Of a stretch of DNA of 64,000 nucleotides, positions 35,792 through 54,789 are shown piece by piece. The stretch's first letter is position 1. Every line of letters starts with the position of its first letter. The notes under the pieces were generated by a model that made no database searches, was not told where the DNA came from, and worked only from the letters and a program-made list of their open reading frames with translations. The position numbers and the translations under genes are program-made. Origin of the DNA: Cognatitamlana onchidii (lineage in GTDB: Bacteria > Bacteroidota > Bacteroidia > Flavobacteriales > Flavobacteriaceae); contig NZ_SRWZ01000002.1 of the NCBI RefSeq assembly GCF_004804355.1, positions 186,001-250,000 on the forward strand. The letters are read 5' to 3'.

Positions 35792-35799
35792 TATATTTG
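35792..35799 (+). promoter_or_regulatory. -7 promoter box (TATATTTG) of alginate unit 1
   Basis: TATATTTG matches TAnnTTTG. The -33 region is a T run without a clear TTG. The first two bases of the operator left box fall inside this box, so repressor binding would block the promoter. Confidence 0.6.
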
Positions 35800-35834
35800 G
35801 AAAACCAAATTGGTTTACCAGTTTGGTTTTCCAA
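35797..35834 (+). promoter_or_regulatory. Composite operator 1: three TGG-N4-CCA boxes, 13 bp apart
   Basis: Boxes begin at 35798, 35811 and 35824, each TGG-N4-CCA. The outer arms TTGGAAAACCAA (35797-35808) and TTGGTTTTCCAA (35823-35834) are perfect inverted repeats. A fourth, imperfect box TTG-TTTA-CCA lies at 35844-35853. The same 38-bp frame recurs at 43094 and 46067. The palindromic TGG-N4-CCA form fits FadR-type GntR dimers, and a gene for such a regulator is at 54085. It overlaps the -7 box, as expected for repression. Confidence 0.85.
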
Positions 35835-35893
35835 GAGTATAATTTGTTTACCAGTTAAATACTAACTAATACATTTCTAAAAATTATTACATT

Positions 35894-37132
35894 ATGAAAA
35901 CAACATTACTTTTTAAACAACAATCGTATAGGTTTTACTTTCTTTTGGTGTTTTGTTTGGGTTTAAATTTTGGTTGGAGCCAACAAGTTATAGGAGAGTT
36001 TCCTATAATGGATGGGGGTCTTGAAGGGCAAACTGCTGGTAACTTAGCGAGTCAGGGAAGTGGTGCAAAAGATACACCATCACCAACATGGTCTATTTCA
36101 ACTACTGGAGGAACCACTGATGAGAGCATATTAGATACCCCAAGTGATGCAAGGTCTGGTAATTTTTCAGTTCAGGCTCAGCTTAATAACGATAAAGACA
36201 ATGCGCGTCTTCAGGCACCATCAACAGTGTCTCCTAATACTATGACTGTGAGTACTGAATATACAGTTCAATTTTTTTATAAATCTAGTGAAGCGCTTCC
36301 AGATGAAAATTTAAAGCCAGGTGTTTACTTGAATAATACTTCTGGCGGGAAAACAACTAATAAAACTGATGTAGGAAGTTTTGTGGCTAATACTTGGGTG
36401 AAAACGTATGGTACGGTTACAACGGGTGATACTTTTAATGCTTCAAATTGGGCTGTAGCTAGAATAGGAGGCGAGAAGAATGTAGACAAACCATTAATAC
36501 ATTTTGATGATTTTGTTGTTTATTCAGGTGCTTATGACGATACTGCTCCAGATGCGGCTACAGGGGGTACATATGCCAATAATGGTGGTACTGCTTCTGT
36601 AGGTTGGACAGCACCAGCTAGTGGTGTTGATGGTGGAGGCTATGTTGTGGTTAAGTACACTTCAATGCCTTCGGCAGATAATGATCCGAATCAAAATGGT
36701 ATTTACCAAGTAGGTAACACGACTACCAACGGTACAGGAAGTCTTGAAGGTACCATCGTTTATATAGGTACAGACACCAGTTTTGATGAGGCTTATGCAG
36801 CTGGAAATTATTACAAAATATATACTGTTGATAAAGCATTCAATTATTCATCAGAATTAGTAGTATCAGATGCTACTTTAGGTTTAGATAAAAATGTACT
36901 ATCACATAGCGTGAAAGTTTATCCCAACCCGGCAAATGATGTAATTACTATCACAACAAAAAATATTGACATAACATCTATATCTTTATACAGTGTTTTA
37001 GGGGAACAAGTATTATCGGGACTAGCGTTGAAAAATGACCGTTTAAATATTTCTGAACTTTCAAGAGGTGTTTATTTCATGAAAATAAACTCAGATCAAG
37101 GTTCGGTAACTAAAAGAATAATTAAGAAGTAG
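35894..37132 (+). CDS. Secreted T9SS-sorted protein, probable carbohydrate-binding
   Basis: The 412-residue protein has a signal peptide ending near FGWSQ, a beta-rich jelly-roll-like region (about residues 30-215) ending in HFDDFVVYSGAYDD, which resembles the end of CBM-type beta-sandwich domains, an FN3-like region (about 220-325) and a type A T9SS sorting domain at the C-terminus (VKVYPNPANDVITI to RGVYFMKINSDQGSVTKRI). It should reach the outer surface. No catalytic residues are recognisable, so a carbohydrate-binding role is inferred only. It is the first gene under operator 1, and is followed by a hairpin before the PL6 gene. Confidence 0.75.
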   Translation: MKTTLLFKQQSYRFYFLLVFCLGLNFGWSQQVIGEFPIMDGGLEGQTAGNLASQGSGAKDTPSPTWSISTTGGTTDESILDTPSDARSGNFSVQAQLNNDKDNARLQAPSTVSPNTMTVSTEYTVQFFYKSSEALPDENLKPGVYLNNTSGGKTTNKTDVGSFVANTWVKTYGTVTTGDTFNASNWAVARIGGEKNVDKPLIHFDDFVVYSGAYDDTAPDAATGGTYANNGGTASVGWTAPASGVDGGGYVVVKYTSMPSADNDPNQNGIYQVGNTTTNGTGSLEGTIVYIGTDTSFDEAYAAGNYYKIYTVDKAFNYSSELVVSDATLGLDKNVLSHSVKVYPNPANDVITITTKNIDITSISLYSVLGEQVLSGLALKNDRLNISELSRGVYFMKINSDQGSVTKRIIKK

Positions 37133-37151
37133 TCAGTTTAGTTTTGTTTGG

Positions 37152-37184
37152 AAAAAGTCTTTTACTCGTAAAAGGCTTTTTCTT
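37152..37184 (+). terminator. Hairpin between the T9SS protein gene and PL6
   Basis: Arms 37152-37165 and 37168-37181 pair over 14 bp with one U-G pair and a 2-base loop, ending in a T tract. It lies 20 bp past the stop codon and 49 bp before the PL6 ATG. It could make a partial terminator that raises expression of the first gene over the rest. Confidence 0.75.
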
Positions 37185-37230
37185 ATTGTAAAACATTTTA
37201 ATTAGTATTTGATACAACAAATAGAATGTC

Positions 37231-39537
37231 ATGAAGATAGCTGTGTTTTTTTTAAGTGTGTTGCTTTTAAGTTTAGGGTGTGAAAAAGCACCAACTATTG
37301 AAGCTATAAAAGTATCTGATTCTAATGAGCTTTTCGGAGCTATAAAAAAAGCGAAACCAGGTGATCAAATTATATTGGCTAATGGTGTTTGGAAAGACGT
37401 TGAAATTAAATTAATTGGTAAAGGAACAGCAGAAAAACCAATAGTTTTAAAAGCTGAAACACCGGGTGGTGTATTTATTGAAGGTACTTCTAGTCTTGAA
37501 ATTAGCGGTGAATATTTAAAAGTAGAAGGCTTGTTCTTTAGAAACGGGCATTCTCCTTTAAGCAATGTCATAGCTTTTAGAACTAGCGAGAAAAACGTTG
37601 CCAATCATTGTAGCGTTTCAAATTGTGTTATTCTAGATTATAATAACTTGAATCGTGATGATGATAATCTCTGGGTTCAATTTTATGGAAAAAACAATAC
37701 ATTAAGTCACTGTTATCTTGCTGGAAAAACAAATGGTGGGCCAACAGTGCGCGTTGATCTTAAAGGAAATCAAAGTATTAGGAATTATCACCAAATAGTG
37801 AATAACCACTTTGGACCAAGACCTCGAAAAGGTGGCGCTAGAGGAGAAACCATTCAACTAGGAAGCAGTTTTACATCCATGTCTCCTAGTAATACAACCA
37901 TAGCAAATAACTTGTTTGAAGCTTGTAATGGAGAAGTGGAAATTATTTCAAGTAAAACGAATTTCAATATTATTAAAAACAACGTGTTTTATAGAAGTGA
38001 AGGCTCGGTTGTAACACGTCATGGTAATTATTGTTTGATTGATGGTAACTACTTTATAGGAGATGGTAAAAACGAAAATTATGGCGGCATTAGAATTGTG
38101 AATACGGGTCATTGGATTACCAATAATCTATTTTACAATTTAAAAGGAAAAAATTTTAGAAGTCCATTGGCTATTATGAATGGTATTCCTAAGTCACCCT
38201 TAAACAGATATAATCAAGTGACTGATGTTGTAGTGGCTTATAACACATATGTGAATTGTAATTCTCCATGGCAATTTGGTGTGGGAACAAATATTGATCA
38301 GGCTAACGTATTACCTAAATCTGAAATACGTTCAGCAAGACCCCTAAGAACAGAAGTCGTAAATAATGTAATTTATAATAAGCTAGGGGATTCAAGGCCT
38401 ATTATTGAACATGATAAGGCTGATGGTGTTACTTTTGCAAGTAATATTATTCATAATAATGGCGTCTCATTTGCAAAGCGAGATGGTTTGGATTTAAAAA
38501 CCCTAAGCTTAACCAGCATTGGAGAAGATCTTAGTGTGCCTATATTGGGTTTCGAAGATGTTGAAATTTATAGTGGGTTTGATTTTGAAACTATTACAAA
38601 AGATATTTTAGGAAATCCAAGGAGTAAGTCCAATCAAATAGGTGCATTTTTAAACTCAGAGCCTATTGATTTAGACCTCCTAGACAAAACTAAATATGGT
38701 GCAAGTTGGTATTCTAATGTTGTTGAAGTTAAAGAGCCAACAACACATATTGTAACCAATGATGCAGAGTTGGATTTAAAATTAAGGACCGCAGAAAAGA
38801 ACGATATTATAGAGTTGCAGGATGGTGTCTTTACGGTTTCAGAGTCTTTAATTATAAACAAACCCATAGTTATTCAATCTAAAGGAAAGACGGAGATAGT
38901 ATATAATGGTCCTGAAAATACACCTGCTTTTGCGTTGCACCCCTATGGTAAGTTAAAATTGAAAGGCATCAAGTTAAAAGGCACAAACACCCAATTCGCA
39001 TTTGCTAGCTTGAAAGACAATATGTTTAATCATTTTGGTTTAGAAGTTATTGATTCAGAAATCAGTCATTTTAACTATGCATTGAAGGTGTATAAGCAAT
39101 CATTTGCAGAAGAAATAACTTTTATGAATACTACCATTTCACATTGTGAGAATGGACTTGAGATATCTGAAGAAACTAATGATAAAGGAGATTATAATAC
39201 CGAGTATTTGACTGTAATGAACTGTAGTTTTAATTCTGTTAATTCTAATGTTATCGATTATTACAGAGGTGGTTATGATGAATCTACAATTGGTGGAAAT
39301 CTTCTAGTTTCTAACTCCACGTTTACAAATTGCGGAGTTAACGAAGCGCATAAGATTTTATTAAATCACAGAGGTATTGTGAATGTAAATATTACTAAGA
39401 ATACATTTAATAATAATCCAGTCGAGTTTGTTGCCATTTTGTGGGGTGCCAAAAACAATATGGAATCCGAGAATGTTATAACCAATTCTGGGCAAATAAA
39501 AACTGTGCAAAATTTAAAGTTAAAACTGATGTATTAG
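37231..39537 (+). CDS. PL6-family alginate lyase, two-domain lipoprotein
   Basis: The 768-residue protein is a lipoprotein (LSLGC, cysteine 17) of the polysaccharide lyase 6 family, whose fold is a right-handed beta-helix. The N-terminal helix (about residues 25-400) carries NHFGPRPRKGGARGETIQLG, NGEVEIISSK and VVTRHGNY. Glu235, Glu237, Lys242 and Arg263 line up in spacing with the calcium-binding and catalytic residues described for two-domain PL6 AlyGC. A second beta-helix domain fills about 500-768. The enzyme should cleave alginate by beta-elimination, with preference for G or MG blocks uncertain. The kdgK gene starts 5 bp after its stop. Confidence 0.92.
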   Translation: MKIAVFFLSVLLLSLGCEKAPTIEAIKVSDSNELFGAIKKAKPGDQIILANGVWKDVEIKLIGKGTAEKPIVLKAETPGGVFIEGTSSLEISGEYLKVEGLFFRNGHSPLSNVIAFRTSEKNVANHCSVSNCVILDYNNLNRDDDNLWVQFYGKNNTLSHCYLAGKTNGGPTVRVDLKGNQSIRNYHQIVNNHFGPRPRKGGARGETIQLGSSFTSMSPSNTTIANNLFEACNGEVEIISSKTNFNIIKNNVFYRSEGSVVTRHGNYCLIDGNYFIGDGKNENYGGIRIVNTGHWITNNLFYNLKGKNFRSPLAIMNGIPKSPLNRYNQVTDVVVAYNTYVNCNSPWQFGVGTNIDQANVLPKSEIRSARPLRTEVVNNVIYNKLGDSRPIIEHDKADGVTFASNIIHNNGVSFAKRDGLDLKTLSLTSIGEDLSVPILGFEDVEIYSGFDFETITKDILGNPRSKSNQIGAFLNSEPIDLDLLDKTKYGASWYSNVVEVKEPTTHIVTNDAELDLKLRTAEKNDIIELQDGVFTVSESLIINKPIVIQSKGKTEIVYNGPENTPAFALHPYGKLKLKGIKLKGTNTQFAFASLKDNMFNHFGLEVIDSEISHFNYALKVYKQSFAEEITFMNTTISHCENGLEISEETNDKGDYNTEYLTVMNCSFNSVNSNVIDYYRGGYDESTIGGNLLVSNSTFTNCGVNEAHKILLNHRGIVNVNITKNTFNNNPVEFVAILWGAKNNMESENVITNSGQIKTVQNLKLKLMY

Positions 39538-39542
39538 AAGTT

Positions 39543-40544
39543 ATGGTTAAAAAAGTTGTCACATTTGGAGAAGTTATGATGCGCCTGTCTCCGCCGGGAT
39601 ATGAAAAATTTTCTCAAGCTTCATCGCTCGAACTTGTTTATGGGGGAGGAGAGGCAAATGTTGGTATTTCCTGTGCTTATTTAGGCATGAAAGCTGCCCA
39701 TGTTACGCGTTTTCCTGATAACGCTCTAGGAAAAGCAGCCACACAATTTTTGCGCAGACATTGGTTAAATACTGAAAATGTTATCTATGGAGATGATAGG
39801 ATGGGGAAGTATTTCCTTGAAAAAGGAGCGGTTCATAGGCCCAGCGAAGTGATTTATGAAAGAGAGGGGTCTGCCTTTTCATTAATTCAACCTTCTATGG
39901 TTAATTGGGAAGAAGCTCTTAAAGATGCAGATTGGTTTCATTGGACTGGTATTACACCTGCGATTTCTGAGGGTGCTGCTAAATGTTGTCTTGATGCCAT
40001 TAAAACAGCAAATAAATTAGGAGTCACAGTATCAGGAGATATAAACTCCAGAAATAATATGTGGAAGTATGGTAAAACTATGCAACAGGTGATTCCAGAT
40101 ATGGTAGAAAATAGTGACGTTGTTATTACCAGTAGCAGAGGTATTAGGGAAATGTTTGGATTAGGCGCTCCAAAAGATAATTTTCAAAGCTTAGCCAAAC
40201 AATTGGTAAGTCATTTTCCACATATTAAAAAAGTCGTTAAAAAAACAAGAAGAATCATGAGTGCTTCGCATCACCAGATTCAAGGTAAATTATGGAATGG
40301 AGAGACATATATTAAAACCGATATGCTAAATATTACGCATATTATAGATCGTGTTGGTACGGGAGACGCTTTTGCGGCAGGTTTAATATATGGGCTGTTA
40401 CATTATGATGATATGTTAGCATTAGATTTTGCCTCTGCGGCATGTGCCTTAAAACATACAATTCCAGGAGATGTCAATATTGTTTCTTTGGAAAATGTGA
40501 GCAGTTTAATGGCCGGAAATACATATGGGGCTATAAAGAGGTAG
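39543..40544 (+). CDS. kdgK: 2-keto-3-deoxygluconate kinase (PfkB family)
   Basis: The 333-residue protein phosphorylates 2-keto-3-deoxygluconate (KDG) to KDPG, which an aldolase then splits. The ribokinase fold is shown by MVKKVVTFGEVMMRLSPPGY, VYGGGEANVGISCAYLGMKA (about residues 30-50) and the PfkB signature DRVGTGDAFAAGLIYGLL (about 270-287), with the catalytic aspartate. I chose the ATG at 39543, five bases after the PL6 stop; the upstream open frame overlaps PL6 and is not real. Position among lyases supports KDG as substrate. No KDPG aldolase gene accompanies it. Confidence 0.92.
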   Translation: MVKKVVTFGEVMMRLSPPGYEKFSQASSLELVYGGGEANVGISCAYLGMKAAHVTRFPDNALGKAATQFLRRHWLNTENVIYGDDRMGKYFLEKGAVHRPSEVIYEREGSAFSLIQPSMVNWEEALKDADWFHWTGITPAISEGAAKCCLDAIKTANKLGVTVSGDINSRNNMWKYGKTMQQVIPDMVENSDVVITSSRGIREMFGLGAPKDNFQSLAKQLVSHFPHIKKVVKKTRRIMSASHHQIQGKLWNGETYIKTDMLNITHIIDRVGTGDAFAAGLIYGLLHYDDMLALDFASAACALKHTIPGDVNIVSLENVSSLMAGNTYGAIKR

Positions 40545-40617
40545 ATTATTAAAGCCAGTTTATCTATCCCTAGAGAAGCTATTTTAAACTAGAGCAAATC
40601 ATAAAGAATTAACACGC

Positions 40618-41670
40618 ATGAGTCTAATAAATATAAAAATAATAGTACCATTCTTATTAGTTATAGGGCTTACTTTTCTTAACATAGGTTGTATTGATAA
40701 ATCAAAGAATACTAATCACGCAAACAAAAGCACTATAGTTTATCCAAGCGAGGTAATCCCTTTTATGCATAACTGGAGAATTCTGTTAGGAGATGGAACA
40801 CGTTCAGATACTTTAGATAATTTTCAGAAAGACCAGTTTTTTTTCGTGGAAATTGAAGACAATACGAAATGGGTAGTTTACAAAACCCCCAATTCTGGAA
40901 TTACTTCAAAAACCTCCAATAATACAAGGACAGAATTGGGAGAAAAAAGACATTGGATACCAGAGGTAGGAGGTAAATTAACAGGAACATTAAAAGTGCA
41001 GCATGTATCAACAACAGGAGATGCAAGGGTGCCATCTTCCTACTCGGTGGTTATAGGTCAGATACATAGTGAGGAAGGACATAAAAATGAACCTTTAAAA
41101 ATATTTTACAAAAAGTTCCCAGGCCATACTAAAGGTTCTGTTTTTTGGAACTACGAAATTAACACGGAGGGTGATAATTCTGGAAGATGGGATGTTTCAA
41201 CAGCCGTTTGGGGAACTAATTGGGCTGTACTAGGAACAAGTAAAGACCGGTATCCCGATGAGCCAGAAGATGGTATTGCTTTAGGTGAAGAGTTTAGGTA
41301 TGAGATTAATGTGTATAAAGGTATCATGCATTTAACCTTCTCAAGCAAAGGACACGAAACTAAAAGGTTTGAAAAAAACTTGTTGAAATCAGATTTTTCA
41401 AAAAAAGAAAATATTCCAAAGCAAGTTTTAAAAGTATATGAGTCCAGAAATAGGGAAGGAATTGAGCGAGACTCTGCTTATGCTGGAGAAATACAAATTT
41501 TTAAACAAGGGGCTTATAATCAAGCTAACGGCAAGTCGACAAAATCAGAAACCTACAATGGGGATATTAAAACACAATATGCTCATGGAAGTTATGCCGA
41601 GGTTTGGTTTAAAGAGGCTACGGTTGGTTTTGGAACGGTACCAGATAGCATAAATTTGGAGAAACTTTAA
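40618..41670 (+). CDS. PL7-family alginate lyase lipoprotein, divergent motif 1
   Basis: The 350-residue protein is a lipoprotein (LNIGC, cysteine 25) with a jelly-roll PL7 domain. Two family motifs are present, QIH (GQIHSEE) and FKQGAYNQ, the equivalent of YFKAGxYxQ. The first motif reads NTRTELGEKR instead of the usual RTELR, losing the second arginine. This pattern is reminiscent of exolytic PL7 enzymes such as AlyA5 of Zobellia, but that is only suggested by resemblance. It should cut alginate at or near chain ends, outside the inner membrane. It lies 73 bp after kdgK and 5 bp before the next gene. Confidence 0.85.
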   Translation: MSLINIKIIVPFLLVIGLTFLNIGCIDKSKNTNHANKSTIVYPSEVIPFMHNWRILLGDGTRSDTLDNFQKDQFFFVEIEDNTKWVVYKTPNSGITSKTSNNTRTELGEKRHWIPEVGGKLTGTLKVQHVSTTGDARVPSSYSVVIGQIHSEEGHKNEPLKIFYKKFPGHTKGSVFWNYEINTEGDNSGRWDVSTAVWGTNWAVLGTSKDRYPDEPEDGIALGEEFRYEINVYKGIMHLTFSSKGHETKRFEKNLLKSDFSKKENIPKQVLKVYESRNREGIERDSAYAGEIQIFKQGAYNQANGKSTKSETYNGDIKTQYAHGSYAEVWFKEATVGFGTVPDSINLEKL

Positions 41671-41675
41671 ACTAT

Positions 41676-42734
41676 ATGAAAGTGAAATATATAAGTGTTT
41701 TGTTTACATGGCTATTTACACTTTATTGCTATGGTCAAGTGCGTCTAGATGCCGACGGACTAGGGAATACCTATAATCTGATTACATCAGTATTAGCTCC
41801 TGGATATAACCCCATTGAAGTTCCAGATTGTGGACATGAAGATTTTGGTGATCATATTGATGAATTATTTGATGCTGATTTGAACGCAAATGTGTTCCGT
41901 TTTTACATGCATGTTACGCCCGATAATGATAGATGTCGTAATTTTGATAGACAGCGTAACGAAATAAAATCGTATTCCAAATCTCCTGATAATTTATTGG
42001 GTGTTGTAGGAGAACAAGTGATCTATAAATGGAAGTTTAAGTTGACAGACGGGTTTCAATCTTCTCCTAATTTCACACATTTGCATCAATTAAAATCTGT
42101 AGGAGGCCCTTTTGATGGTATGCCCATGTATACGCTAACTACCCGTAAGGGAAGTCCAGACCGCTTAGAATTACGTTATGCTGAAATTGACACCCAAATT
42201 ACATTAAAGAAAACCGATTTACAACCCTTTATTGGTACCTGGTTAGAAGTCTCTGAAGTAATAGAATATGGGACTTCTGGCGCCTATTCTATTGAAATTA
42301 AAAGGGTTAGTGATGGTGCTGTATTATTCGAATACTCAAATAATGATATGGTTCATTGGAGGCAAGATGCAGAATTTGTTCGACCAAAATGGGGTATTTA
42401 CAGAAGCTTGAACAATCCGCAAGACCTTAGAGATGAACAGGTCTTATTTGCAAATTTTAGTATTGAAGAAGTTGAACCATTGTCACTAGATGTTTTGGAA
42501 CCAAAGCATGAGTTTTGTGTGGTATCTGATTCTGTTGCAAACACGCTACAGCTATATAATCTACCACGAGAAGCTAAGCATATTGAAGTTTACACAATCG
42601 ACGGAAGAAAAGTTTTGAGAAAAAGCATAAGAAAAGCTAAAGAGACCCTTTATATACCTTCATTAAGCAAGGGGACTTATATTATTAAGGTTACAGGCGG
42701 TGCAATGAATCAATCCAAAAAAATTGAATATTGA
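41676..42734 (+). CDS. Secreted jelly-roll protein with T9SS tail, candidate lyase
   Basis: The 352-residue protein has a signal peptide ending near YCYGQ, a ConA-like jelly-roll domain (about residues 22-265) with FDRQRNEIKSYS, YKWKFKLTDGFQ, FTHLHQLKSVGG and DRLELRYAE, and a C-terminal T9SS sorting domain (VYTIDGRKVLRKSI to KGTYIIKVTGG). The pattern recalls the heparin-lyase-I-like polysaccharide lyase fold (PF14099, including PL13 and PL20), where His and Tyr catalyse beta-elimination. It lacks the PL7 motif set. Its place 5 bp after a PL7 gene suggests activity on alginate or its oligomers. Family assignment is tentative. Confidence 0.72.
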   Translation: MKVKYISVLFTWLFTLYCYGQVRLDADGLGNTYNLITSVLAPGYNPIEVPDCGHEDFGDHIDELFDADLNANVFRFYMHVTPDNDRCRNFDRQRNEIKSYSKSPDNLLGVVGEQVIYKWKFKLTDGFQSSPNFTHLHQLKSVGGPFDGMPMYTLTTRKGSPDRLELRYAEIDTQITLKKTDLQPFIGTWLEVSEVIEYGTSGAYSIEIKRVSDGAVLFEYSNNDMVHWRQDAEFVRPKWGIYRSLNNPQDLRDEQVLFANFSIEEVEPLSLDVLEPKHEFCVVSDSVANTLQLYNLPREAKHIEVYTIDGRKVLRKSIRKAKETLYIPSLSKGTYIIKVTGGAMNQSKKIEY

Positions 42735-42822
42735 ATTAATAAATAGAGTAATTTTCAGTAGGAGGTTTCTGTATGTGTTAAAAGAACCTTAGTCAGTTTG
42801 TTAATAGCGTCCTTGCTTTTGG

Positions 42823-42845
42823 CTGATTATCAATCAGGAGTTTTT
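42823..42845 (+). terminator. Weak terminator after alginate unit 1
   Basis: CTGATT (42823-42828) and AATCAG (42832-42837) form a 6-bp stem with a 3-base loop, followed at 42841 by five T. The stem is short, so the call is tentative. Confidence 0.35.
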
Positions 42846-43065
42846 AAATACTAATTTACATAATTTGAGGGTAGCTGCTTTTAAAGCATGTTTGGTTGCA
42901 TGATGTAACTCAAACGGTTTTGTTTTTGGCATCCGAATATAATAGTGTTGTTTCGGGAGCAACGGTCCGTATAAATGGGGAGTTTATAATTATGTTGGTT
43001 TGAAGTTGCTGTAAGTGTTTTTTTTCTACTAAAATGTTTGAAATGCTGTTTTTAACACAATAAAA

Positions 43066-43096
43066 TTTGGATAACGCTTTATAATGTTTATTTTTG
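43066..43096 (+). promoter_or_regulatory. Promoter of alginate unit 2
   Basis: TTTG (43066-43069), a 19-bp spacer and TATTTTTG (43089-43096) give the best match in the window to the Bacteroidota promoter consensus. The operator starts at 43094, inside the -7 box. Confidence 0.75.
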
Positions 43097-43120
43097 GTAA
43101 ACCAAACTGGTTAACCAGTT
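43094..43120 (+). promoter_or_regulatory. Operator 2: two TGG-N4-CCA boxes, 13 bp apart
   Basis: TTGGTAAACCAA (43094-43105) is followed by the 16-bp perfect palindrome AACTGGTTAACCAGTT (43105-43120). Box starts are 43095 and 43108. The third box of the 38-bp frame is missing: that position reads AAACATGAG. It aligns without gaps to operators 1 and 3. Confidence 0.85.
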
Positions 43121-43305
43121 AAAACATGAGAAAGCAAACTTTTTTGTGTTGTATTATTTAATATAGTTTTAGTATCGTGAAATAACCTTGGACTTTTAAT
43201 CCGGGTTCATTGAAAACTCATTTGGGTTATCGAATAATTCGCCTTTAAAAGGAAAAGGTACAGATAGTAAAGATTTAGGTGTTATTTCAATTAACTAAAA
43301 TAAGG

Positions 43306-45582
43306 ATGATAAACAGAATGTCAATTAGAGTATTACTTGTTATATTATGTATGATGGCTATTTCGTGTAAAAAGCAATCAGTGAATAAGGTAGAGGAATT
43401 TTCATCAACCAAACAAGAGCATCCAAGTTTAATATTAACAGAACAAGGTGTCAAAGATATTAGGGCTAATTTAGGACGTATACCCATTTTTGATAAAACA
43501 TTAGAAGCAACCAAAGTTGAAGTTGATGCAGAAATTAAAAATGGTTTTGATGTGCCGCTTCCAAAAGACTATTCTGGAGGATACACACATGAAACACATA
43601 AAAAGAATTATGTGTTAATGCAAAAAGCAGGGGTGTTATATCAAATCCTTCAGGATGAAAAATACGCCAAATTTGTTAAGGACATGTTGTTCGAATATGC
43701 AAAAGAATATCCAAAATGGCCTATTCATCCAAAACCAAGATCCTATGCTCGAGGTAAATTATTTTGGCAATGTTTAAATGATTCTAATTGGCTGGTTTAT
43801 ACAAGTCAGGCTTATGATTGTATTTATGATTTTTTATCAGAAGATGAACGCAATATTTTAGAAAACGATTTATTTAGACCTTTTGCAGATCATATATCAA
43901 TACATAATTTAAAGTTTTTTAATAGGGTTCATAACCATGCAACTTGGGGTAATGTTGCTGTAGGTATGATTGCTTTGGTTATGGATGATGATGTTCTTTT
44001 AGAAAGAGCATTGAGTGGTGTTGAAAATGCTGATTATGATCCCAATGAAAAGGATGACGACGGTGGTTATATTCGAAAGGAAGGTCAGGCCATAGGCTTT
44101 TTTGCCAATGTAAACGACCCATTTTCTCCAGATGGGTATTTTACAGAAGGGCCTTATTATCAAAGGTATGCTTCTTATCCTTTTTTAATTTTTGCACAAG
44201 CACTTCAAAATAAAAGACCAGAACAGAAAGTATTCCAATTCAAGGATAGTGTACTTATTAAAAGCGTAAATGCCTTATTAAATTTATCAGATAAAGATGG
44301 AGAGTTCTTTTTATTAAACGACTCTCAAAAAGGGATGTCTTACTTTAATTCATCTTTAGTATCAGCAGTAGATATTGCGTATCATTTTGGAGGAAACAAC
44401 CCAGAATTGCTAAGTATAGCAAAGAAACAAGATGAAGTTACTCTTGATGATGCAGGTTTAGCTGTTGCTTTGGGTATAAAAGAAGGAAAGGAAAAACCTT
44501 TTGTGAAAAAATCAATTGAATTATCTGATGGGGCTAATGGCGATGAAGGAGGGGTTGCAATTTTACGTAGTTACGGTTTGGAATTGGTTTTTAAATACAC
44601 GGCCCATGGATTAAGTCACGGTCATTATGATAAATTGTCTTTTGCTTTATTTGAAGATGGTAATGAAGTAGTTCAAGATTACGGTATGGGGCGTTTTGTT
44701 AATATAGAACAAAAAGGAGGCGGTAATTATTTAAAGGAGAATAAAACTTGGGCCCGACAAAGTATTGCCCATAATACTTTAGTGCAAAACGAAACTTCTC
44801 ATTTTAAAGGCAAGTATGATATAGGAAGTAAGTATCATCCAACTAAATATGTTTTCAGTGTAACAGACGAAAACCTTCAAGTAGCTAGTGCAAAAGATGA
44901 TAAGGCGTACCCTGGAACAAGGCTTCACAGAACGATGGTGGCTATTAAAGACGAGGCGTATGAAACACCTTATATATTAGATATAATGAGGGTGGTGTCA
45001 GATAGCTCCAACCAGTATGATTTGCCATTTTATTTCTTAGGACATGTCATGCAAGCCAATTTTGAATATTCTAAAATGCCTGTGCCAGAAATTTTGGGGA
45101 AATCTGATGGGTATCAGCATTTATATAAAGAGGCTTCAGCATCTGTAAAAGAAGGAAATATTACATTAAACTGGTTGCGAAACAATAAATTTTATACCTA
45201 TACAGCAATTACTTCCAATGCGGATGAAGTTATTTTTGGCAGAATTGGAGCTAACGATCCAGACTTTAATTTACGGAATGAACAGACCTTAATTCTGAGA
45301 AAAAAGAATGTGAAAGATGCTTTATATGTTTCAACAATAGAATCTCATGGAAGATATTCTCCTGTTTCTGAATTAGCAGTGAATGCTTATAGCAATATAA
45401 AAAAAGTATCAGTTGTTTATGACTCAAAAGAATATACGGCAATCAAGATTGATACAAAAAACGATAAATCAAAAGTCTTTATAATTTCAAATCAAAAGAA
45501 TGATAAAGATTTAGAGCATAAATTAACAATAAAAAATAAGGAGTATATCTGGAAAGGTGCTTATCAATTAATAGAAAACTAA
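43306..45582 (+). CDS. PL17-family oligoalginate lyase lipoprotein
   Basis: The protein of about 758 residues has a lipobox (MAISC), an alpha/alpha-toroid N-terminal lyase domain and a C-terminal heparinase II/III-like beta-sandwich, the PL17 layout. Key stretches are FNRVHNHATWGNVAVG, with the Asn-His pair, GYFTEGPYYQRYASY with the catalytic tyrosine, and HGLSHGHYDKLSFALFEDG with the histidine pair. PL17 enzymes release unsaturated uronate monomer from alginate oligomer ends. I used the ATG at 43306; one at 43318 is as likely, and a GTG at 43279 is not. It is the first gene of unit 2, followed 13 bp later by kdgF. Confidence 0.93.
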   Translation: MINRMSIRVLLVILCMMAISCKKQSVNKVEEFSSTKQEHPSLILTEQGVKDIRANLGRIPIFDKTLEATKVEVDAEIKNGFDVPLPKDYSGGYTHETHKKNYVLMQKAGVLYQILQDEKYAKFVKDMLFEYAKEYPKWPIHPKPRSYARGKLFWQCLNDSNWLVYTSQAYDCIYDFLSEDERNILENDLFRPFADHISIHNLKFFNRVHNHATWGNVAVGMIALVMDDDVLLERALSGVENADYDPNEKDDDGGYIRKEGQAIGFFANVNDPFSPDGYFTEGPYYQRYASYPFLIFAQALQNKRPEQKVFQFKDSVLIKSVNALLNLSDKDGEFFLLNDSQKGMSYFNSSLVSAVDIAYHFGGNNPELLSIAKKQDEVTLDDAGLAVALGIKEGKEKPFVKKSIELSDGANGDEGGVAILRSYGLELVFKYTAHGLSHGHYDKLSFALFEDGNEVVQDYGMGRFVNIEQKGGGNYLKENKTWARQSIAHNTLVQNETSHFKGKYDIGSKYHPTKYVFSVTDENLQVASAKDDKAYPGTRLHRTMVAIKDEAYETPYILDIMRVVSDSSNQYDLPFYFLGHVMQANFEYSKMPVPEILGKSDGYQHLYKEASASVKEGNITLNWLRNNKFYTYTAITSNADEVIFGRIGANDPDFNLRNEQTLILRKKNVKDALYVSTIESHGRYSPVSELAVNAYSNIKKVSVVYDSKEYTAIKIDTKNDKSKVFIISNQKNDKDLEHKLTIKNKEYIWKGAYQLIEN

Positions 45583-45595
45583 TAAATTAAATATT

Positions 45596-45970
45596 ATGAA
45601 AAGATTTAGTGAAAAGTATATTATAACCAAAGAAATGGAATGGGAAGAGCTTGGCGGAGGAGTATCAAGAAAGTTCTTAGGTTATGACAACCAAATCATG
45701 ATGGTAAAGGTTAAATTTAAGAAAGGAGCATTGGGGTCTCCTCATAAACATTTTCATACGCAAGCTACCTATTGTGTTTCGGGTAAATTTGAATTTGAGA
45801 TTGATGGTGAAAAGAAAATTGTAGAAGCAGGGGATGGGGTTTATATTGAACCTAATCTATTGCATAGTGCCATTTGTTTGGAAGAAGGCATGCTAATTGA
45901 CACATTTAGTCCCGTAAGAGAAGACTTTTTAACTGGTGATGGAGTATCTTATTTTGGTGATAAACAGTAA
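45596..45970 (+). CDS. kdgF: KdgF, cupin that opens unsaturated uronates
   Basis: The 124-residue single-domain cupin matches KdgF, which converts 4,5-unsaturated uronate monomers into linear ketonised forms (for alginate, DEH). Metal ligands are seen in SPHKHFHTQATYCVSGKFEF (residues about 49-68) and a later histidine in EPNLLHSAICLEEG. There is no signal peptide, so it is presumably cytoplasmic. The gene sits 13 bp behind the PL17 gene, which makes its substrate, an arrangement strongly supportive of the assignment. Confidence 0.93.
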   Translation: MKRFSEKYIITKEMEWEELGGGVSRKFLGYDNQIMMVKVKFKKGALGSPHKHFHTQATYCVSGKFEFEIDGEKKIVEAGDGVYIEPNLLHSAICLEEGMLIDTFSPVREDFLTGDGVSYFGDKQ

Positions 45971-46038
45971 TATGGTAGGGCTATCAGTCCATTTGGTAGA
46001 TGACTCGGTATACCAAAATTGTTAAAATTGACAATTAG

Positions 46039-46069
46039 TTGGTTTTAACAAAAATTTAGTATATATTTG
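46039..46069 (+). promoter_or_regulatory. Promoter of alginate unit 3
   Basis: TTG (46039-46041), a 20-bp spacer and TATATTTG (46062-46069) match the Bacteroidota consensus. The spacing equals that of the rpsF promoter. An AT-rich inverted repeat TGTTAAAA / TTTTAACA at 46020-46050 spans the -33 region. Confidence 0.7.
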
Positions 46070-46104
46070 GGAAACCAATCTGGTTAACCAATTTGGAAAA
46101 CCAA
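46067..46104 (+). promoter_or_regulatory. Composite operator 3: three TGG-N4-CCA boxes, 13 bp apart
   Basis: TTGGGAAACCAA (46067-46078), then TCTGGTTAACCAAT, then TTGGAAAACCAA (46093-46104). Boxes start at 46068, 46081 and 46094. The first is TGGGAAACCA, which keeps the TGG-N4-CCA form. It overlaps the -7 box by three bases and aligns gap-free with operators 1 and 2. Confidence 0.85.
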
Positions 46105-46160
46105 AAAAATAAACTAAATGTATAACTCTTCAAAAACAAACTTAACATGAGAAAATAAAA

Positions 46161-46278
46161 AAAAGGACAGGTGCACGCCTATCCTTTTAAAGTTGTTTAC
46201 TTCTTTTAGGAGGGAAGTAAAGAAACACACGCCATACTTGATAAAACATGTGAATTTCAAAATTACAAAATTTTGAAA
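46161..46278 (+). other. Three successive hairpins in the susC leader
   Basis: Hairpin A (46161-46171 with 46178-46188) has 11 bp with one mismatch. Hairpin B (46196-46203 with 46214-46221) is a perfect 8-bp stem whose loop contains AGGAGG, a Shine-Dalgarno-like sequence. Hairpin C (46255-46264 with 46269-46278) is a perfect 10-bp stem. A role in post-transcriptional control is inferred only. Confidence 0.55.
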
Positions 46279-46384: not shown

Positions 46385-49300
46385 ATGAATTTAAAAAACA
46401 AACTAACGCTTATTGTAATATTATTATGCAGTATTACAGTTATTGCACAAGATGGGACAATTAGGGGTACGGTCGTATCGTCCACTGATAACATTCCCAT
46501 TCCTGGTGTAAATGTCATCGTCTTAAACACTACTAGAGGGGCTACAACAGATTTTGATGGTAACTATGAAATCAGAGCCAATGAAGGAGAAGTATTGCAG
46601 TTTTCATATGTTGGCTTTACTGCGCAAACAAAGATTATTGGAAATCAATCTACTATTAATGTATCCTTAGAAGAAGATGTATCTCAACTAGATGAGGTTG
46701 TGGTAATTGGTTATGGTACCCAGAAAAAGTCGCATTTAACAGGATCAGTTTCTAAAGTAGTAAACGAAAACTTAGAACAAATTGCTGTAGCTAGAGTAGA
46801 TGATGCTTTAATTGGGCAGGTTTCGGGTGTTAACATTCAAGCCACCGATGGTGGTGCTGGTGCTGCGCCAACTATTACCATAAGAGGTGTGGGTTCCATG
46901 GCAGGCGACTCAACGCCGTTAATTGTTGTTGATGGGGTTATTGTGGATTCCGATTTCTTGAGTGCACTTAACATGAATGATGTGAAATCTTTTGAAATAC
47001 TAAAGGACGCCGCTTCGTCATCAATTTATGGTTCTAAAGGTTCTAATGGTATTATTATGATTAGTATGAAAGATGGTGTGGAAGGAAAGACCCGAATTAA
47101 CTATAGTACATTTACAGGTTTTAAAGAAGCTATTCATAGTGATCCTTACACATTTTCTATTGAAGAAACTGCCAAAGCAGAGTTGGCGGCAAATGGGGTG
47201 CTTTCAGATAGAACAAAATACAAACAGCTTATAGGTATTGATAGATCTTGGCAAGATGTGATTTTTGATGGAGGAACTATCACAAGTCACTCACTTTCTA
47301 TAAGAGGCGGTAATAGTACAACCAAGTTTACGGCAAGTGCTAATTATGCTGAGGACGAAGGCGTACTCTTAACAGATAATTTTAAGAAGTATGGCATGCG
47401 CCTTAAGGTTGACACTAAACTGAGTGATAAATTTAAGTTTGGGGCTAGCTTAAGTCCATCTTACACTAATACAAGACGTTTTGATGGTTCCACACATGAT
47501 ATCTTAAGACAAACCAATTGGTTGCCTGTTTATCATGATGCCAATACGATAAGGTATGTTGACAGAAATCTCTACCCAGACGTTGAAATTGGGGATTACG
47601 CAACACAGCGTCATTTCGATAATTATGATTTGTATGGCAATGGTAGTGCTTTAGTGGATATTAGTAATACTTCAAACACAAACCCGGCAGCAAAGGTTAT
47701 AGAGAGAGAGCGTTTCGATAAAAAGTTTAAGACCTTTGGTAGTTTATATTTAGACTACAGTATCATTGAAGGGTTAAATTTTAGAACTATGCTTTCTGGT
47801 TCTTATCAAGATACCAGAAGAACAAGGTGGCAAGGTGTAAAGGCAAGTAGAAACGGAGCGGCAGCTGCAAGAATGGATGAAATTACGCAACGTCAAATAT
47901 ACCTTATATGGGATAACTTTTTAAGTTATAATAAAACCATTGGGAATCATGAAATAGGGGCCACTTTAGGATCTGTTGTTGAATCTAGAGATAGCTTTAA
48001 TTCCACGATAACAGGAACTGGATATACAACGGATGCAGTAAAGCAAATAACCAATGCCGCTTTAATTTCTAATGCAGATGCTTTTGAATGGCAAAAAAGA
48101 GGAATCTCTTATGTTGCGAGAGTTAATTATGCTTATGATAATAGATATTTAGCATCGTTTAGTTTTAGACGAGATGGTAGTTCTATTTTTGGATCAGATT
48201 ATAAATATGGTAATTTCCCAGCTGCCTCAGTAGGTTGGAACATTTCTAACGAAAGTTTTTTACAAGATAGTGATGTGTTAAGTAATTTAAAACTTAGAGC
48301 TAGCTATGGTGTAACGGGTAACGATAGACTAAATACAGGGAGTGTAGATCCCAACGTAAACACAAGCTCAAGTAGTTTAAGCACGGGGAATATTCTTGTA
48401 GATTTCTATCCTTATTTAGCCTTATTAAGTGCTGTTACGGCTAGTACAGAAGGTGCTATAACCCCAGGTTTTTCACCACTTAATATAGCTAATAATGGCT
48501 TAAAATGGGAGCGTTTAATAGAAATCAACCCTGGTATTGATTTTGGATTTTTTAGAAATAGGATTACTGGATCTTTAGATTGGTATCAAAGAACAAGTGA
48601 TCAGTTACTGCTTAACAACCCAATATCTTATACAACTGGTTTTAATAGCGCTTTGGTTAATTTGGGAGAAGTTAAAAATGAAGGATTTGAATTGGAATTG
48701 AGGACTAAAAACATAGCTTCAGAGAAATTTAAATGGAATTCAGCAATTATCGTGACAACTAATAAGAATACCCTTGTTGATTTTGGAGATTCCAACGGGC
48801 AAATTTCAAATGTCGATGAAAAGCGCGCTGCAGAATGGATTAACCTTGAAGGGCAACCAATTTCAACCTATTATGGATGGGTTGTTGATAAAGACATTCC
48901 ATTAGAAAACCTTAATAATGCCTACCATCCGGTTGGAGCTCAAGCCCAAGATGTATACGTAAAGGATTTGAATGGTGACGGTCTGATTGATGACGACGAT
49001 AAAGCGGCTTTAGGCGATCCTTATCCAGAATTAATATGGAGTTTTACAAATAGTTTTGAAATCGGTGCTATAGATTTTAGCTTTATGTTTCAAGGATCTC
49101 ATGGAGCAGAAATAAGAAACATGGGAGATCAATATTTGTTTAATCATTTTAATAGTGCACAGGATTTTAATACTTCAACTACTCCGGATCAGCAATTTAT
49201 TAAGCAAAAAATATTTACTAATGATATTATTCAAGATGCATCATACATTGCATTACGTAACTTAAATATAGGATATAACTTTTCTTCAGACGTTTTATCA

Positions 49301-49486
49301 AAACTAAAACTATCTAATTTAAGAATTTATGCAACAGGACAGAATTTAATGTACGTAAAAGCAGATGATTATACAGGTTTTAATCCAGAATCGATTGATA
49401 GAACAAGCCCAACCAATTATGGGTATCAAAGAGCTGGTTCACCTATCGCTAGAACGATATCATTAGGATTGAATTTAGATTTTTAA
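46385..49486 (+). CDS. SusC/RagA-family TonB-dependent transporter (alginate)
   Basis: The 1033-residue outer-membrane transporter has a signal peptide ending near TVIAQ, a carboxypeptidase-like regulatory domain (about residues 22-95: IRGTVVSSTDNIPIPGVNVI), the TonB-box-like LDEVVVIGYGTQKKSHLTGS, a plug with ITIRGVGSMAGDSTPLIVVDGV and SSIYGSKGSNGIIMISMKDG, and a 22-strand barrel ending SLGLNLDF. It imports oligosaccharides with the lipoprotein SusD as lid, driven by TonB. Alginate oligomers are inferred as substrate from its neighbours. It is 24 bp before susD and preceded by operator 3. Confidence 0.94.
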   Translation: MNLKNKLTLIVILLCSITVIAQDGTIRGTVVSSTDNIPIPGVNVIVLNTTRGATTDFDGNYEIRANEGEVLQFSYVGFTAQTKIIGNQSTINVSLEEDVSQLDEVVVIGYGTQKKSHLTGSVSKVVNENLEQIAVARVDDALIGQVSGVNIQATDGGAGAAPTITIRGVGSMAGDSTPLIVVDGVIVDSDFLSALNMNDVKSFEILKDAASSSIYGSKGSNGIIMISMKDGVEGKTRINYSTFTGFKEAIHSDPYTFSIEETAKAELAANGVLSDRTKYKQLIGIDRSWQDVIFDGGTITSHSLSIRGGNSTTKFTASANYAEDEGVLLTDNFKKYGMRLKVDTKLSDKFKFGASLSPSYTNTRRFDGSTHDILRQTNWLPVYHDANTIRYVDRNLYPDVEIGDYATQRHFDNYDLYGNGSALVDISNTSNTNPAAKVIERERFDKKFKTFGSLYLDYSIIEGLNFRTMLSGSYQDTRRTRWQGVKASRNGAAAARMDEITQRQIYLIWDNFLSYNKTIGNHEIGATLGSVVESRDSFNSTITGTGYTTDAVKQITNAALISNADAFEWQKRGISYVARVNYAYDNRYLASFSFRRDGSSIFGSDYKYGNFPAASVGWNISNESFLQDSDVLSNLKLRASYGVTGNDRLNTGSVDPNVNTSSSSLSTGNILVDFYPYLALLSAVTASTEGAITPGFSPLNIANNGLKWERLIEINPGIDFGFFRNRITGSLDWYQRTSDQLLLNNPISYTTGFNSALVNLGEVKNEGFELELRTKNIASEKFKWNSAIIVTTNKNTLVDFGDSNGQISNVDEKRAAEWINLEGQPISTYYGWVVDKDIPLENLNNAYHPVGAQAQDVYVKDLNGDGLIDDDDKAALGDPYPELIWSFTNSFEIGAIDFSFMFQGSHGAEIRNMGDQYLFNHFNSAQDFNTSTTPDQQFIKQKIFTNDIIQDASYIALRNLNIGYNFSSDVLSKLKLSNLRIYATGQNLMYVKADDYTGFNPESIDRTSPTNYGYQRAGSPIARTISLGLNLDF

Positions 49487-49510
49487 AAGACGCATTTAAC
49501 AATATATATT

Positions 49511-50941
49511 ATGAAAGAATTAAAAATTATAATCGTACTATTAATTGGAATTGTGATCTCTTCCTGTGATAGTGATTTTTTATCGCCAGAACCTAGTTCA
49601 GGTATCACATCGGCGACTTATTATAAGGATGCTTCCGAAGTTCAAACAGCAATTATTGCCATTTATGACGGTATTCAAGGAATCAATAGTACAAGAACAC
49701 AAGATTTGCATGCTGTGCAATATGAGTATTATTTAACAGAAATGCGCAGTGATAATACACGTACAAAAAGTCAAGAAGGTGAGGCTGCGCAATTTGAATC
49801 TTATAGTGTAGAAGCTACAAACGGTATTGTATCAAACTATTATGGTAGCTTTTTTAATGTTATAATGAGAGCTAATACAGTATTAGCCAATTTAGATGTA
49901 GTAACAGATCCAGATACTAAAAAGGCTTTTGAAGCTGAAGCTAAATTTTTAAGAGCTTATGCTTATTTTAATTTGGTTAGACTTTTTGGAGACTTGCCAT
50001 TAATAGACCGTGTTATTGGACCTCTTGAAAAAGAAATACAGTACACTAGAGTTTCTACATCGACAATTTATGATCTTATTGAAAATGACTTAGAAACAGC
50101 AGTGGTAGGGTTGGATAATTCTTATACTACAAGGGCATCCAAAGCAGCAGCACAGGCTTTACTAGCTAAGGTCTATCTAACAGATGACAAGAACTACTCA
50201 AGAGCCCAATCACTATGTGAAGACGTTATGGGTAGTGGATTTGAATTGTTGGATAATTTTAATGATGTATTCTACACTGAGAGAAACAAAGAAATAATTT
50301 TCGCCATTGGTTTCGAGTCTGGACTAACTGCAGATAGTCAAAACTTTTCTGCAGAGTGGTTAAACGGTGTTGGAAGAACAGTTGGTGTAAATTATGTTAC
50401 TACCGATGCAGTTAATGCTTTGGAAGAATCTGGAGGCGATAGAACGGCGTTTTCTTATAGAATTGACCCTGCTCAAATATCACAGAATCAAGTGACAAAA
50501 TATTTACCAGATGGTCAAGACGGAGGTGATGACGGCCGAACTTTTGAAGGTGATGCCAGATTAGCAGGTAATGATTGGATTGTTTTACGCTACGCCGATG
50601 TATTATTAATGCATGCAGAGGCTATTATGGCTGGTGCTTTAGAAACTACGAGTAGCAATGCTATAGAATCATACAACAAGGTAAGAGAACGAGCTGGCTT
50701 AGAAGACGATGAAGATGGAACGCTAACTATTGATGAGTTACTTTTAGAAAGACGTGTTGAACTTGCTTTTGAAAACCAAAGATTGTTTGACCTTATTAGA
50801 TTAGGTAAAGCTCAGGAAGTACTATCCGCTTTTTCAGCAGCAAATGGCTATAATTTCGCCTCTACAGATTTAATTCTACCAATACCCCAGAGAGAAATTA
50901 ATTTGAGTCAAGGACTAATGAGTCAGAATCCTGGCTACTAA
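49511..50941 (+). CDS. SusD/RagB-family lipoprotein
   Basis: The 476-residue protein is a surface lipoprotein (IVISSC, cysteine 19) with TPR-like helices, typical of SusD. SusD hallmarks include AEAKFLRAYAYFNLVRLFGDLPLI (about residues 138-160, split here) and the C-terminal LLERRVELAFENQRLFDLIR with LPIPQREINLSQGLMSQNPGY. It captures oligosaccharides and closes over the SusC barrel. The gene follows susC by 24 bp. Alginate is inferred from context. Confidence 0.94.
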   Translation: MKELKIIIVLLIGIVISSCDSDFLSPEPSSGITSATYYKDASEVQTAIIAIYDGIQGINSTRTQDLHAVQYEYYLTEMRSDNTRTKSQEGEAAQFESYSVEATNGIVSNYYGSFFNVIMRANTVLANLDVVTDPDTKKAFEAEAKFLRAYAYFNLVRLFGDLPLIDRVIGPLEKEIQYTRVSTSTIYDLIENDLETAVVGLDNSYTTRASKAAAQALLAKVYLTDDKNYSRAQSLCEDVMGSGFELLDNFNDVFYTERNKEIIFAIGFESGLTADSQNFSAEWLNGVGRTVGVNYVTTDAVNALEESGGDRTAFSYRIDPAQISQNQVTKYLPDGQDGGDDGRTFEGDARLAGNDWIVLRYADVLLMHAEAIMAGALETTSSNAIESYNKVRERAGLEDDEDGTLTIDELLLERRVELAFENQRLFDLIRLGKAQEVLSAFSAANGYNFASTDLILPIPQREINLSQGLMSQNPGY

Positions 50942-50970
50942 AAACAGTTTTAATTTTTAAAATAGAAAAC

Positions 50971-51987: not shown

Positions 51988-52042
51988 ACTTGCATTTATC
52001 AATTAATAGAGGATTAAAAAGAAAAAAATTGTTGTAGATATC

Positions 52043-52966: not shown

Positions 52967-52976
52967 AATCGGGTTA

Positions 52977-54058: not shown

Positions 54059-54068
54059 TTGAAAACCA
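54059..54068 (+). promoter_or_regulatory. Possible operator half-box before the GntR regulator gene
   Basis: TTG-AAAA-CCA at 54059-54068 is one base from TGG-N4-CCA, and lies 17 bp before the regulator's ATG. The same imperfect form is found as the fourth box of operator 1 (35844-35853). It could mark weak autoregulation. Confidence 0.4.
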
Positions 54069-54084: not shown

Positions 54085-54789
54085 ATGAAACTTGAAACAC
54101 TAATAGTAAGCGATAATCAGGACATACAAAATGGTATTATAGGAAAGATCAAAGAATTGATAAATTATAAAAATTTGGAGCCTGGTGATAAACTACCATC
54201 TGAACGTATGCTATCTGAAAAATTTGGAGTTACAAGAAGCAATGTTAGGGATGCCATCCAGAAATTAGAGTTTTATGGTTTATTAAAATCGATTCCTCAA
54301 AGTGGAACTTTTGTAGCCAACATTGGTGTGATAGCTATGAATGGTATGATAGACGATATTTTAAGATTGGAGACCCCCGATTTTAAGTCTTTGGTAGAGA
54401 CAAGAATTCTATTAGAGTTAAAAACCGTTCGATTAGCTGCCCTAAGAAGAACTGATGAAGACTTGAAAAATATAGAAACGGCTTTAAACGATTATAAGCA
54501 AAAGGTATTATCTGGTCAGGATGCTGTTCAAGAAGATTTACTTTTTCATTTAGCCATAGCTAAAGCTAGTGGAAATAGTACGATGAACACATTTATGTTG
54601 ACAATTACACCGCAGATTATAATGAATTTTGAAAAATACCACGTCTGTGATAAAAATCAAGCCGTACTCGGAATTAAAGAGCATACAGATATTTTTGAGG
54701 CTATTAAAAATCAAGACTCTAAAATGGCCAAACAAAAAATGAAAGATCATTTTAGTGTATTATATCAATATTGCTACAATGTAAAATAA
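54085..54789 (+). CDS. GntR (FadR subfamily) transcriptional regulator, AusR-like
   Basis: The 234-residue protein has an N-terminal winged-helix domain (about residues 12-78) with PGDKLPSERMLSEKFGVTRS and IPQSGTFVA, and a C-terminal FCD ligand-binding domain with LVETRILLELKTVRLAA and DLLFHLAIAKASGNSTM, containing the histidines likely to bind a metal or ligand. It resembles AusR of Zobellia galactanivorans, a repressor of alginate catabolism. The TGG-N4-CCA operators at 35797, 43094 and 46067 are the obvious targets. Ligand, possibly KDG or KDPG, is not known from sequence. Confidence 0.88.
   Translation: MKLETLIVSDNQDIQNGIIGKIKELINYKNLEPGDKLPSERMLSEKFGVTRSNVRDAIQKLEFYGLLKSIPQSGTFVANIGVIAMNGMIDDILRLETPDFKSLVETRILLELKTVRLAALRRTDEDLKNIETALNDYKQKVLSGQDAVQEDLLFHLAIAKASGNSTMNTFMLTITPQIIMNFEKYHVCDKNQAVLGIKEHTDIFEAIKNQDSKMAKQKMKDHFSVLYQYCYNVK

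Follow-up and report, generated by a model that had tools for sequence, protein, structure and literature searches.

Three promoters of an alginate utilisation locus carry arrays of a 10-bp box, TGG-N4-CCA, repeated every 13 bp, in a 64,000-nucleotide stretch of the Cognatitamlana onchidii genome (Flavobacteriaceae; RefSeq assembly GCF_004804355.1, contig NZ_SRWZ01000002.1, positions 186,001 to 250,000), which we refer to as the window. The locus also encodes a GntR/FCD regulator at 54085-54789, and we consider it likely that the three sites are operators of this repressor, whose dimers would pack at a step specific to its clade and block three alginate units together. The boxes, their phasing, their overlap with a promoter word, their co-occurrence with the regulator and a spacing that tracks the regulator's clade can all be read from the sequences compared here.

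The boxes lie in one ungapped frame with a start-to-start step of 13 bp at all three sites, with three at site 1 (35798, 35811 and 35824), two at site 2 (43095 and 43108) and three at site 3 (46068, 46081 and 46094). An earlier note on this DNA had described such a gapless frame of three, two and three boxes, with the left box of each site starting inside the word TAnnTTTG, which is the Bacteroidota promoter consensus at about -7. Both statements are borne out by the coordinates, as the final TG of the words at 35792-35799, 43089-43096 and 46062-46069 is in each case the start of the first TGG. There are 22 copies of TGG-N4-CCA in the window against 9.46 expected; the three-site pattern is real and far above chance. 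The elements concerned, found from sequence unless another basis is given, are as follows.

35792-35799, plus strand: candidate -7 promoter box of site 1, TATATTTG, with its TG common to box 1
35798-35833, no strand assigned: predicted operator array 1, TGGAAAACCA-AAT-TGGTTTACCA-GTT-TGGTTTTCCA, three boxes, period 13
43089-43096, plus strand: candidate -7 promoter box of site 2, TATTTTTG
43095-43117, no strand assigned: predicted operator array 2, TGGTAAACCA-AAC-TGGTTAACCA, two boxes, period 13
46062-46069, plus strand: candidate -7 promoter box of site 3, TATATTTG
46068-46103, no strand assigned: predicted operator array 3, TGGGAAACCA-ATC-TGGTTAACCA-ATT-TGGAAAACCA, three boxes, period 13
54059-54068, plus strand: weak single box TTGAAAACCA ahead of the regulator gene, degenerate, differing from TGG-N4-CCA by one mismatch
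54085-54789, plus strand: GntR/FCD (FadR-type) repressor, AusR type A, probable binder (domains and structure matches)

Phased boxes in the host genome and its relatives

In the whole 3.4-Mb genome (12 contigs), exact 13-bp pairs occur five times, all of them within the three window sites, and a reversed-pattern control occurs once. When up to three mismatches to a stricter word pair are allowed, 21 places are found in the genome and 11 with the control. Among relatives, we kept the best 80 of 107 named loci (1.55 Mb), the regulators of which are 68-86% identical to that of the window. These loci contain 573 TGG-N4-CCA words, and their pairs up to 60 bp apart fall at 13 bp (139 pairs) or 26 bp (41 pairs), with none at any other distance, while the control word ACC-N4-GGT (165 copies) forms a single pair, at 26 bp. 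A chance origin of the boxes is ruled out by the excess in the window, the uniqueness of the pairs in the genome and these pair counts against the control.

The earlier note had proposed a scan of related alginate loci for boxes phased at 13 bp, and such arrays are present in 73 of the 81 sources (the window and 80 loci), 61 of the 103 arrays having two boxes and 42 having three; a four-box array can be found in genome G019. A lack of phased boxes in homologous loci, by which the note would have been refuted, is not observed. Arrays in this set are by definition chains at 13 or 26 bp, and the absence of other steps comes from the count of pairs at all distances. Six of the eight sources that lack an array are shorter stretches, and two (L022 and L024) are of full length. 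For 93 first boxes that lie on a promoter word, allowing a degenerate second box (at least seven of its eight letters) still places the best partner only at 13 bp, in 91, or at 26 bp, in 18, with ties included. The arrays could conceivably have arisen by slippage, as tandem duplications of 13 bp inherited with no requirement on spacing, which could yield identical tandem steps. This is hardly credible, since 102 of the 103 arrays have distinct sequences, adjacent boxes often differ, and the arrays stand at unrelated promoters, where 94 of 103 have an outer box that overlaps TAnnTTTG on one or both strands (given strand 93, other strand four, both three). No inner box overlaps the word on the given strand (0/145).

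Half-site quality varies with the number of boxes. Two-box arrays have the consensus base at position 4 in 225 of their 240 half-sites, and in three-box arrays it is present in 113 of 168 half-sites of the outer boxes and 79 of 84 of the middle boxes (p = 3e-12 for box number against quality, which is overstated, since loci share descent). Outer boxes that are weaker where boxes are more numerous are as expected if each box adds to binding, which suggests that every box contributes to the total.

The box is also seen singly before regulator genes. Among the 103 genes for type A regulators, the clade of the window's own, that have sufficient upstream sequence, 46 are preceded by one strict box, six by one loose box, six by an array and 45 by none, whereas shuffled controls give about 0.9 genes with any box (L296 was set aside in this count and in the residue alignment below). 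Examples of such single boxes can be found in L007, L012 and L076. The lone boxes suggest self-control of the regulator. From these counts and the degenerate TTGAAAACCA of the window, target units would have two or three boxes and the regulator gene often one.

The unit of recognition has an alternative frame. The true dimer site could be the odd-centred ACCA-N3-TGGT between boxes, half a unit off; both palindromes are inevitable in a tandem array, and ACCA-N3-TGGT is perfect at several places. Arrays are, however, almost never flanked by an extra half box (upstream of 1/103 and downstream of 5/103) and thus end in whole TGG-N4-CCA units, which argues for TGG-N4-CCA as the unit. The lone box is TGGTTAACCA at 39 of the 52 single-box regulator genes, and in the sister clade of regulators described below (type B) the gap from CCA to TGG is mostly five or six bases while TGGTNNACCA is unchanged. 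We regard the shifted frame as very unlikely.

Co-occurrence of regulator and boxes was assessed in 299 genomes of the family, with a regulator threshold of E <= 1e-40 (73 genomes) and a pair defined as two or more TGGTNNACCA words separated by 0-24 bases (79 genomes). Both were present in 68 genomes, the pair only in 11, the regulator only in five and neither in 215 (Fisher p = 5e-49, uncorrected for kinship). All five genomes with the regulator only have 13-bp pairs under the looser box TGG-N4-CCA. Six of the 11 genomes with the pair only were rechecked with this looser box: G153 has one 13-bp TGGTNNACCA pair, G040 has two loose pairs that lack the TGGT/ACCA core, and four have none. In G029, G110, G155, G174 and G215, also with the pair only, the listed pairs are at steps other than 13. 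Similar palindromes are common among FadR-subfamily proteins (PMC4494728), and together with the pair in G153, which has no regulator match, this would allow another regulator of the genome to be the binder. That reading is improbable given the genome-wide co-occurrence of the boxes with regulators of the 54085 type and a spacing that tracks the tree of these regulators. The earlier note had held that one repressor could silence the surface, oligomer-cleaving and import units together; co-occurrence and the position of the operators on the -7 box speak for this, with the binding itself being a prediction from sequence.

Two places of the host genome (G000) outside the window match the 13-bp pair with a single mismatch. 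One, at G000:C11:149584-149606 (L131 3585-3607), is an array just ahead of the gene for a 580-residue Chondroitinase B (PL6-type) protein, with the word TATATTTG a few bases upstream. Genome G132 has an equally long gene whose PL6 match is similar and which is also directly preceded by a 13-bp array; for this reason the C11 array is probably a fourth target of the regulon, far from the window. The other, at G000:C10:180661, lies inside a long reading frame and is probably due to chance.

Spacing across the regulator tree

The sister clade of type B regulators, which are 39-53% identical to that of the window, has the same box at other steps. A scan of 395 genomes across the phylum found pairs in 25, ten of them in this family and 15 outside it. 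Two of the 15 (G452 and G468, family f5) have the box at 15 bp repeatedly or beside a regulator, and their arrays adjoin regulators 47-49% identical to that of the window; each of the remaining 13 has a single pair, and the steps are scattered (15 in G626). Of 150 f5 genomes scanned, 39 contain pairs, most of those listed having a step of 15 or 16 bp, and 43 contain the regulator (E <= 1e-30). We then counted pairs 11-20 bp apart that include at least one strict box. In the window and the 80 loci, 140 of 140 pairs are at 13 bp, as are 33 of 33 in 22 further loci with type A regulators, while 58 type B loci have 35 pairs at 15, ten at 16, one at 14 and one at 17, and none at 13. The strict 13-bp phasing described in the earlier note thus holds for type A relatives, with 26 bp as the only other step within 60 bp in the 80 loci, and gives way in the sister clade to mostly 15 or 16 bp. 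Of 39 type B arrays (counted by row), 27 have an outer box that overlaps TAnnTTTG; type B arrays are here by definition chains at 14-17 bp, and the absence of 13 comes from the separate count of pairs at 11-20 bp. A 22-bp step was also observed at L341 8650 and 14508 and at L340 8940, loci of two f56 genomes that encode type B regulators.

We built a tree of 109 regulators in which a label gives the period of the nearest array in the fetched stretch. A single branch (SH-aLRT 99) sets apart 47 rows that include every one of the 40 labelled 13, and the 37 labelled 14, 15, 16, 17 or 22 all lie beyond it. The remaining 32 rows are unlabelled, both regulators of L338 are absent from the tree, and new rows comprise aligned parts only. 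The tree implies one change of spacing if the label of L296_15866 is dropped; an earlier tree that kept this label implied two, and was built from 21 of the 81 regulators of the 80 loci (every fourth), that of the window and all others found. The label was removed as L296_15866 is a second paralogue of G183, with its nearest arrays 10 kb off and a type A regulator on the same contig.

We also fixed a prediction before fetching more loci, namely that type A-like genes would have a step of 13 and type B-like genes one of 14-17. One of the two type A-like loci has 13 (two pairs) and one has no pair. Five of the 11 type B loci have 14, 15 or 16 (G897, G1084, G1001a, G1085 and G825), two have 22 (G1001b and G1102:C3) and four have no pair. 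Full-box 13-bp pairs were absent from the type B genes of this predicted set.

The rows labelled 13 include some from other families: G778, G791 (f5) and G897 (f56). Two of these genomes have both types of regulator. Contig C35 of G791 (L261, L262) encodes a type A regulator (63% identity) accompanied by 13-bp arrays, and contig C8 encodes one of type B (48%) beside a 15-bp array. The MutS of C35 is 88% identical to that of G684, another species of the same genus, and 70% identical to that of the window genome; by its sequence, C35 belongs to the host G791. The G+C content of the locus stretch on C35 is 0.48 compared with 0.52-0.53 in three other C35 stretches, which fits import, and the type A locus of G791 does look imported. 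In G897 as assembled (L331, L332), two 13-bp pairs accompany a type A regulator, and a 14-bp pair accompanies one of type B. The G778 contig (37 kb) could be contamination.

The regulator and the proposed packing of its dimers

The 54085 regulator combines a GntR winged helix (62.6 bits) with an FCD domain (87.1 bits), both over the Pfam cut-off, which is the domain pair of the FadR subfamily. Its best matches among solved structures are FadR-type GntR regulators including NanR (Foldseek; the mean pLDDT of the model is only 76, and the model was used for layout only). It is encoded within an alginate locus with SusCD and alginate lyases, and its predicted operators occur in two or three copies in the window and singly before 52 of the 103 type A regulator genes. 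From domains, locus content and operator copy number, the regulator is best read as AusR type. In the alignment, residues R41, R51 and R55 and the wing PQSGT, which we take from FadR structures to be probable base contacts, are identical in type A and type B regulators, and the same presumed contacts in both types fit a common box. The two types are separated by K29/G, S39/P, S44/A and F47/L and by other scattered residues, many of them in the FCD domain. In the predicted model, helix 1 ends at residue 28, helix 2 spans 40-47 and the recognition helix spans 51-63, so that K29, S39, S44 and F47 are in or beside helices 1 and 2 and outside the recognition helix. It is a guess from this model that neighbouring dimers touch through the helix 1-2 face. 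We had also considered the N-terminal 16 residues as a feature of type A only, an idea that arose from database alignments of type B that begin at about residue 17; it was dropped, since the type B N-terminus is of similar length and different sequence in the alignment.

We infer binding by this protein, one dimer per box, contacts between dimers and the residues involved. Each 10-bp palindrome TGGTNNACCA would take one dimer, and dimers would sit side by side on the DNA in twos or threes (at least one relative has four boxes), with about 86 degrees between neighbours. The first dimer would cover the -7 box, and a filled array would block RNA polymerase at all three units (surface lyase, oligomer lyase and SusCD import) until alginate breakdown products release the repressor. 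The protein would itself read the spacing, in that type A would pack its dimers at 13 bp and type B, on an identical box, for the most part at 15 or 16 bp. With 10.5 bp to a helical turn, a step of 13 bp is a rotation of 86 degrees (1.24 turns), and steps of 15 and 16 bp are rotations of 154 and 189 degrees; none of the three sets neighbours on the same face one turn apart, and 22 bp sets them on nearly the same face two turns on. The closest case studied by experiment is NanR, whose dimers bind their repeats cooperatively and bind less well when the spacers are lengthened (see below). We regard cooperative packing as the likeliest cause of the fixed step. Spacing could further serve as a recognition code, in which each repressor has its own step on the same 10-bp word and dimer contacts steer the two repressors apart in G791 and G897; this is a tentative suggestion that we think could well be wrong.

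A more serious alternative to cooperative packing, though in our judgement an unlikely one, is that dimers fill the boxes independently, so that copies raise occupancy of the promoter and 13 bp is the closest packing possible when flanks are read, with no contacts between dimers. The spacers do fit R-W-Y in 136 of 144 cases, like two abutting flanks, and single boxes are conserved ahead of the regulator gene. Independent sites would nevertheless tolerate other distances, and the 80 loci have no full-box pairs at 14-25 or 27-60 bp. The step also varies with regulator clade while the box and the presumed contact residues stay constant.

Several observations weigh against the packing of dimers at a clade-specific step. 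The 52 of 103 type A regulator genes with just one upstream box indicate that more than one dimer is not always needed, and we have dropped an obligatory need for two boxes given these genes. The full-length loci L022 and L024 have no array within 10 kb, and the type A-like regulator of G1102 has no pair nearby. The 13-bp pair of G153 (L140 about 6021) is near a SusC-like gene in a genome with no regulator match at E <= 1e-8. In type B, steps of 15 and 16 bp coexist in single genomes (G812 and G805) and in one array (L249), and the 22-bp steps in two genomes contradicted our written prediction, so that type B spacing is not rigid; in L334, a type B locus, a degenerate box (6/8 letters) follows the first at +13. 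The period labels on the tree reflect proximity, which is not proof, and part of the sharing of periods is common descent.

Locus, leader RNA and known systems

The genes behind the three arrays, and an RNA element between array 3 and susC, are as follows.

35894-37132, plus strand: first gene of unit 1, a 412-residue protein with a Por secretion tail (domain search)
37231-42734, plus strand: remainder of unit 1, namely a PL6-type (Chondroitinase B) protein, a PfkB sugar kinase, a PL7-type alginate lyase and a 352-residue Por-tailed protein (domains)
43279-45970, plus strand: unit 2, an alginate lyase (Alginate_lyase and Hepar_II_III, PL17 type) and a cupin protein (domains)
46151-46225, plus strand: two-hairpin leader RNA element (model R1) between array 3 and susC (pattern and covariance; no Rfam match)
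46385-53921, plus strand: unit 3, with SusC, SusD, a PKD protein and two PL7-type alginate lyases (domains)

The 352-residue protein has a lyase match below the cut-off. Judging from their order and strand, the genes of unit 1 would form one unit. Unit 3 is followed by the GntR/FCD regulator, a major-facilitator transporter and a short-chain dehydrogenase.

By pattern, the two-hairpin element can be found in 33 of 176 sources, with one copy in each. Its consensus comprises 16 pairs. Nine double changes (A-U to G-C) fall on one of these and a single one on another; most pairs are invariant, and covariation support is thin. A model built from 30 sequences was found in 53 of the 299 genomes, and all 53 are among the 73 regulator genomes, an overlap that is partly expected as the model was built from such loci. 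A search of 34500-55500 against Rfam returned one sub-threshold match only, and by Rfam the element is unrecorded; in the type B loci searched there was no match better than E = 0.69. The leader may be a terminator-like attenuator, a processing site or a small-RNA target. The susC leaders of Bacteroides are sites of action of FopS RNAs and RbpB (PMC11697453), and the likeness to the element described here is one of analogy only. Through this leader, the alginate importer may come under a further level of control.

Multi-box operators are common in general, and multi-copy AusR operators are already known. The exact period and the clade split were not found in print: an open-licence search, in which the search on binding sites was weak and to which the AusR paper itself was external, returned no 13-bp rule or clade split, the papers listed on operator spacing concerned lac looping and unrelated work, and the 20 listed of 94 that contain at least one box sequence are unrelated by title. 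A step that changes with the protein while the box and presumed contacts stay constant is a natural test of how repressors measure spacing. The pattern also provides a search rule for alginate regulons in marine relatives, namely TGGTNNACCA at 13 or 15-16 bp on TAnnTTTG.

The sites described for the FadR subfamily are AT-rich palindromes with TKGT/ACMA boxes and a GTM-N0-1-KAC core (PMC4494728). The boxes of the window share the TKGT/ACMA form and differ in being set in tandem arrays with a fixed step. In Escherichia coli, three FadR-type NanR dimers bind side by side and cooperatively on three promoter repeats, and spacers lengthened by six nucleotides weaken binding (PMC8012715). NanR recognises direct GGTATA repeats and has a 32-residue N-terminal extension, whereas the window has palindromic boxes 1.24 turns apart. 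The GntR domain of the 54085 regulator begins at residue 16, with about 15 residues ahead of it, so that neither the repeats nor the extension of NanR are seen here; the domain start rules out a NanR-type extension.

The closest known system is AusR of Zobellia galactanivorans. AusR represses alginate genes and is released by oligosaccharides or degradation products (PMC8286568), and it binds promoters via single, double or triple copies of its operator (PMC7874173, citing Dudek 2020). These accounts agree with the earlier note, which had named AusR-type control of alginate genes in Zobellia as known. The system of the window resembles that of Z. galactanivorans in having a GntR-family repressor of alginate genes with multi-copy operators, and it differs in that the conservation of the period and the periods of the sister clade come from the present analysis.

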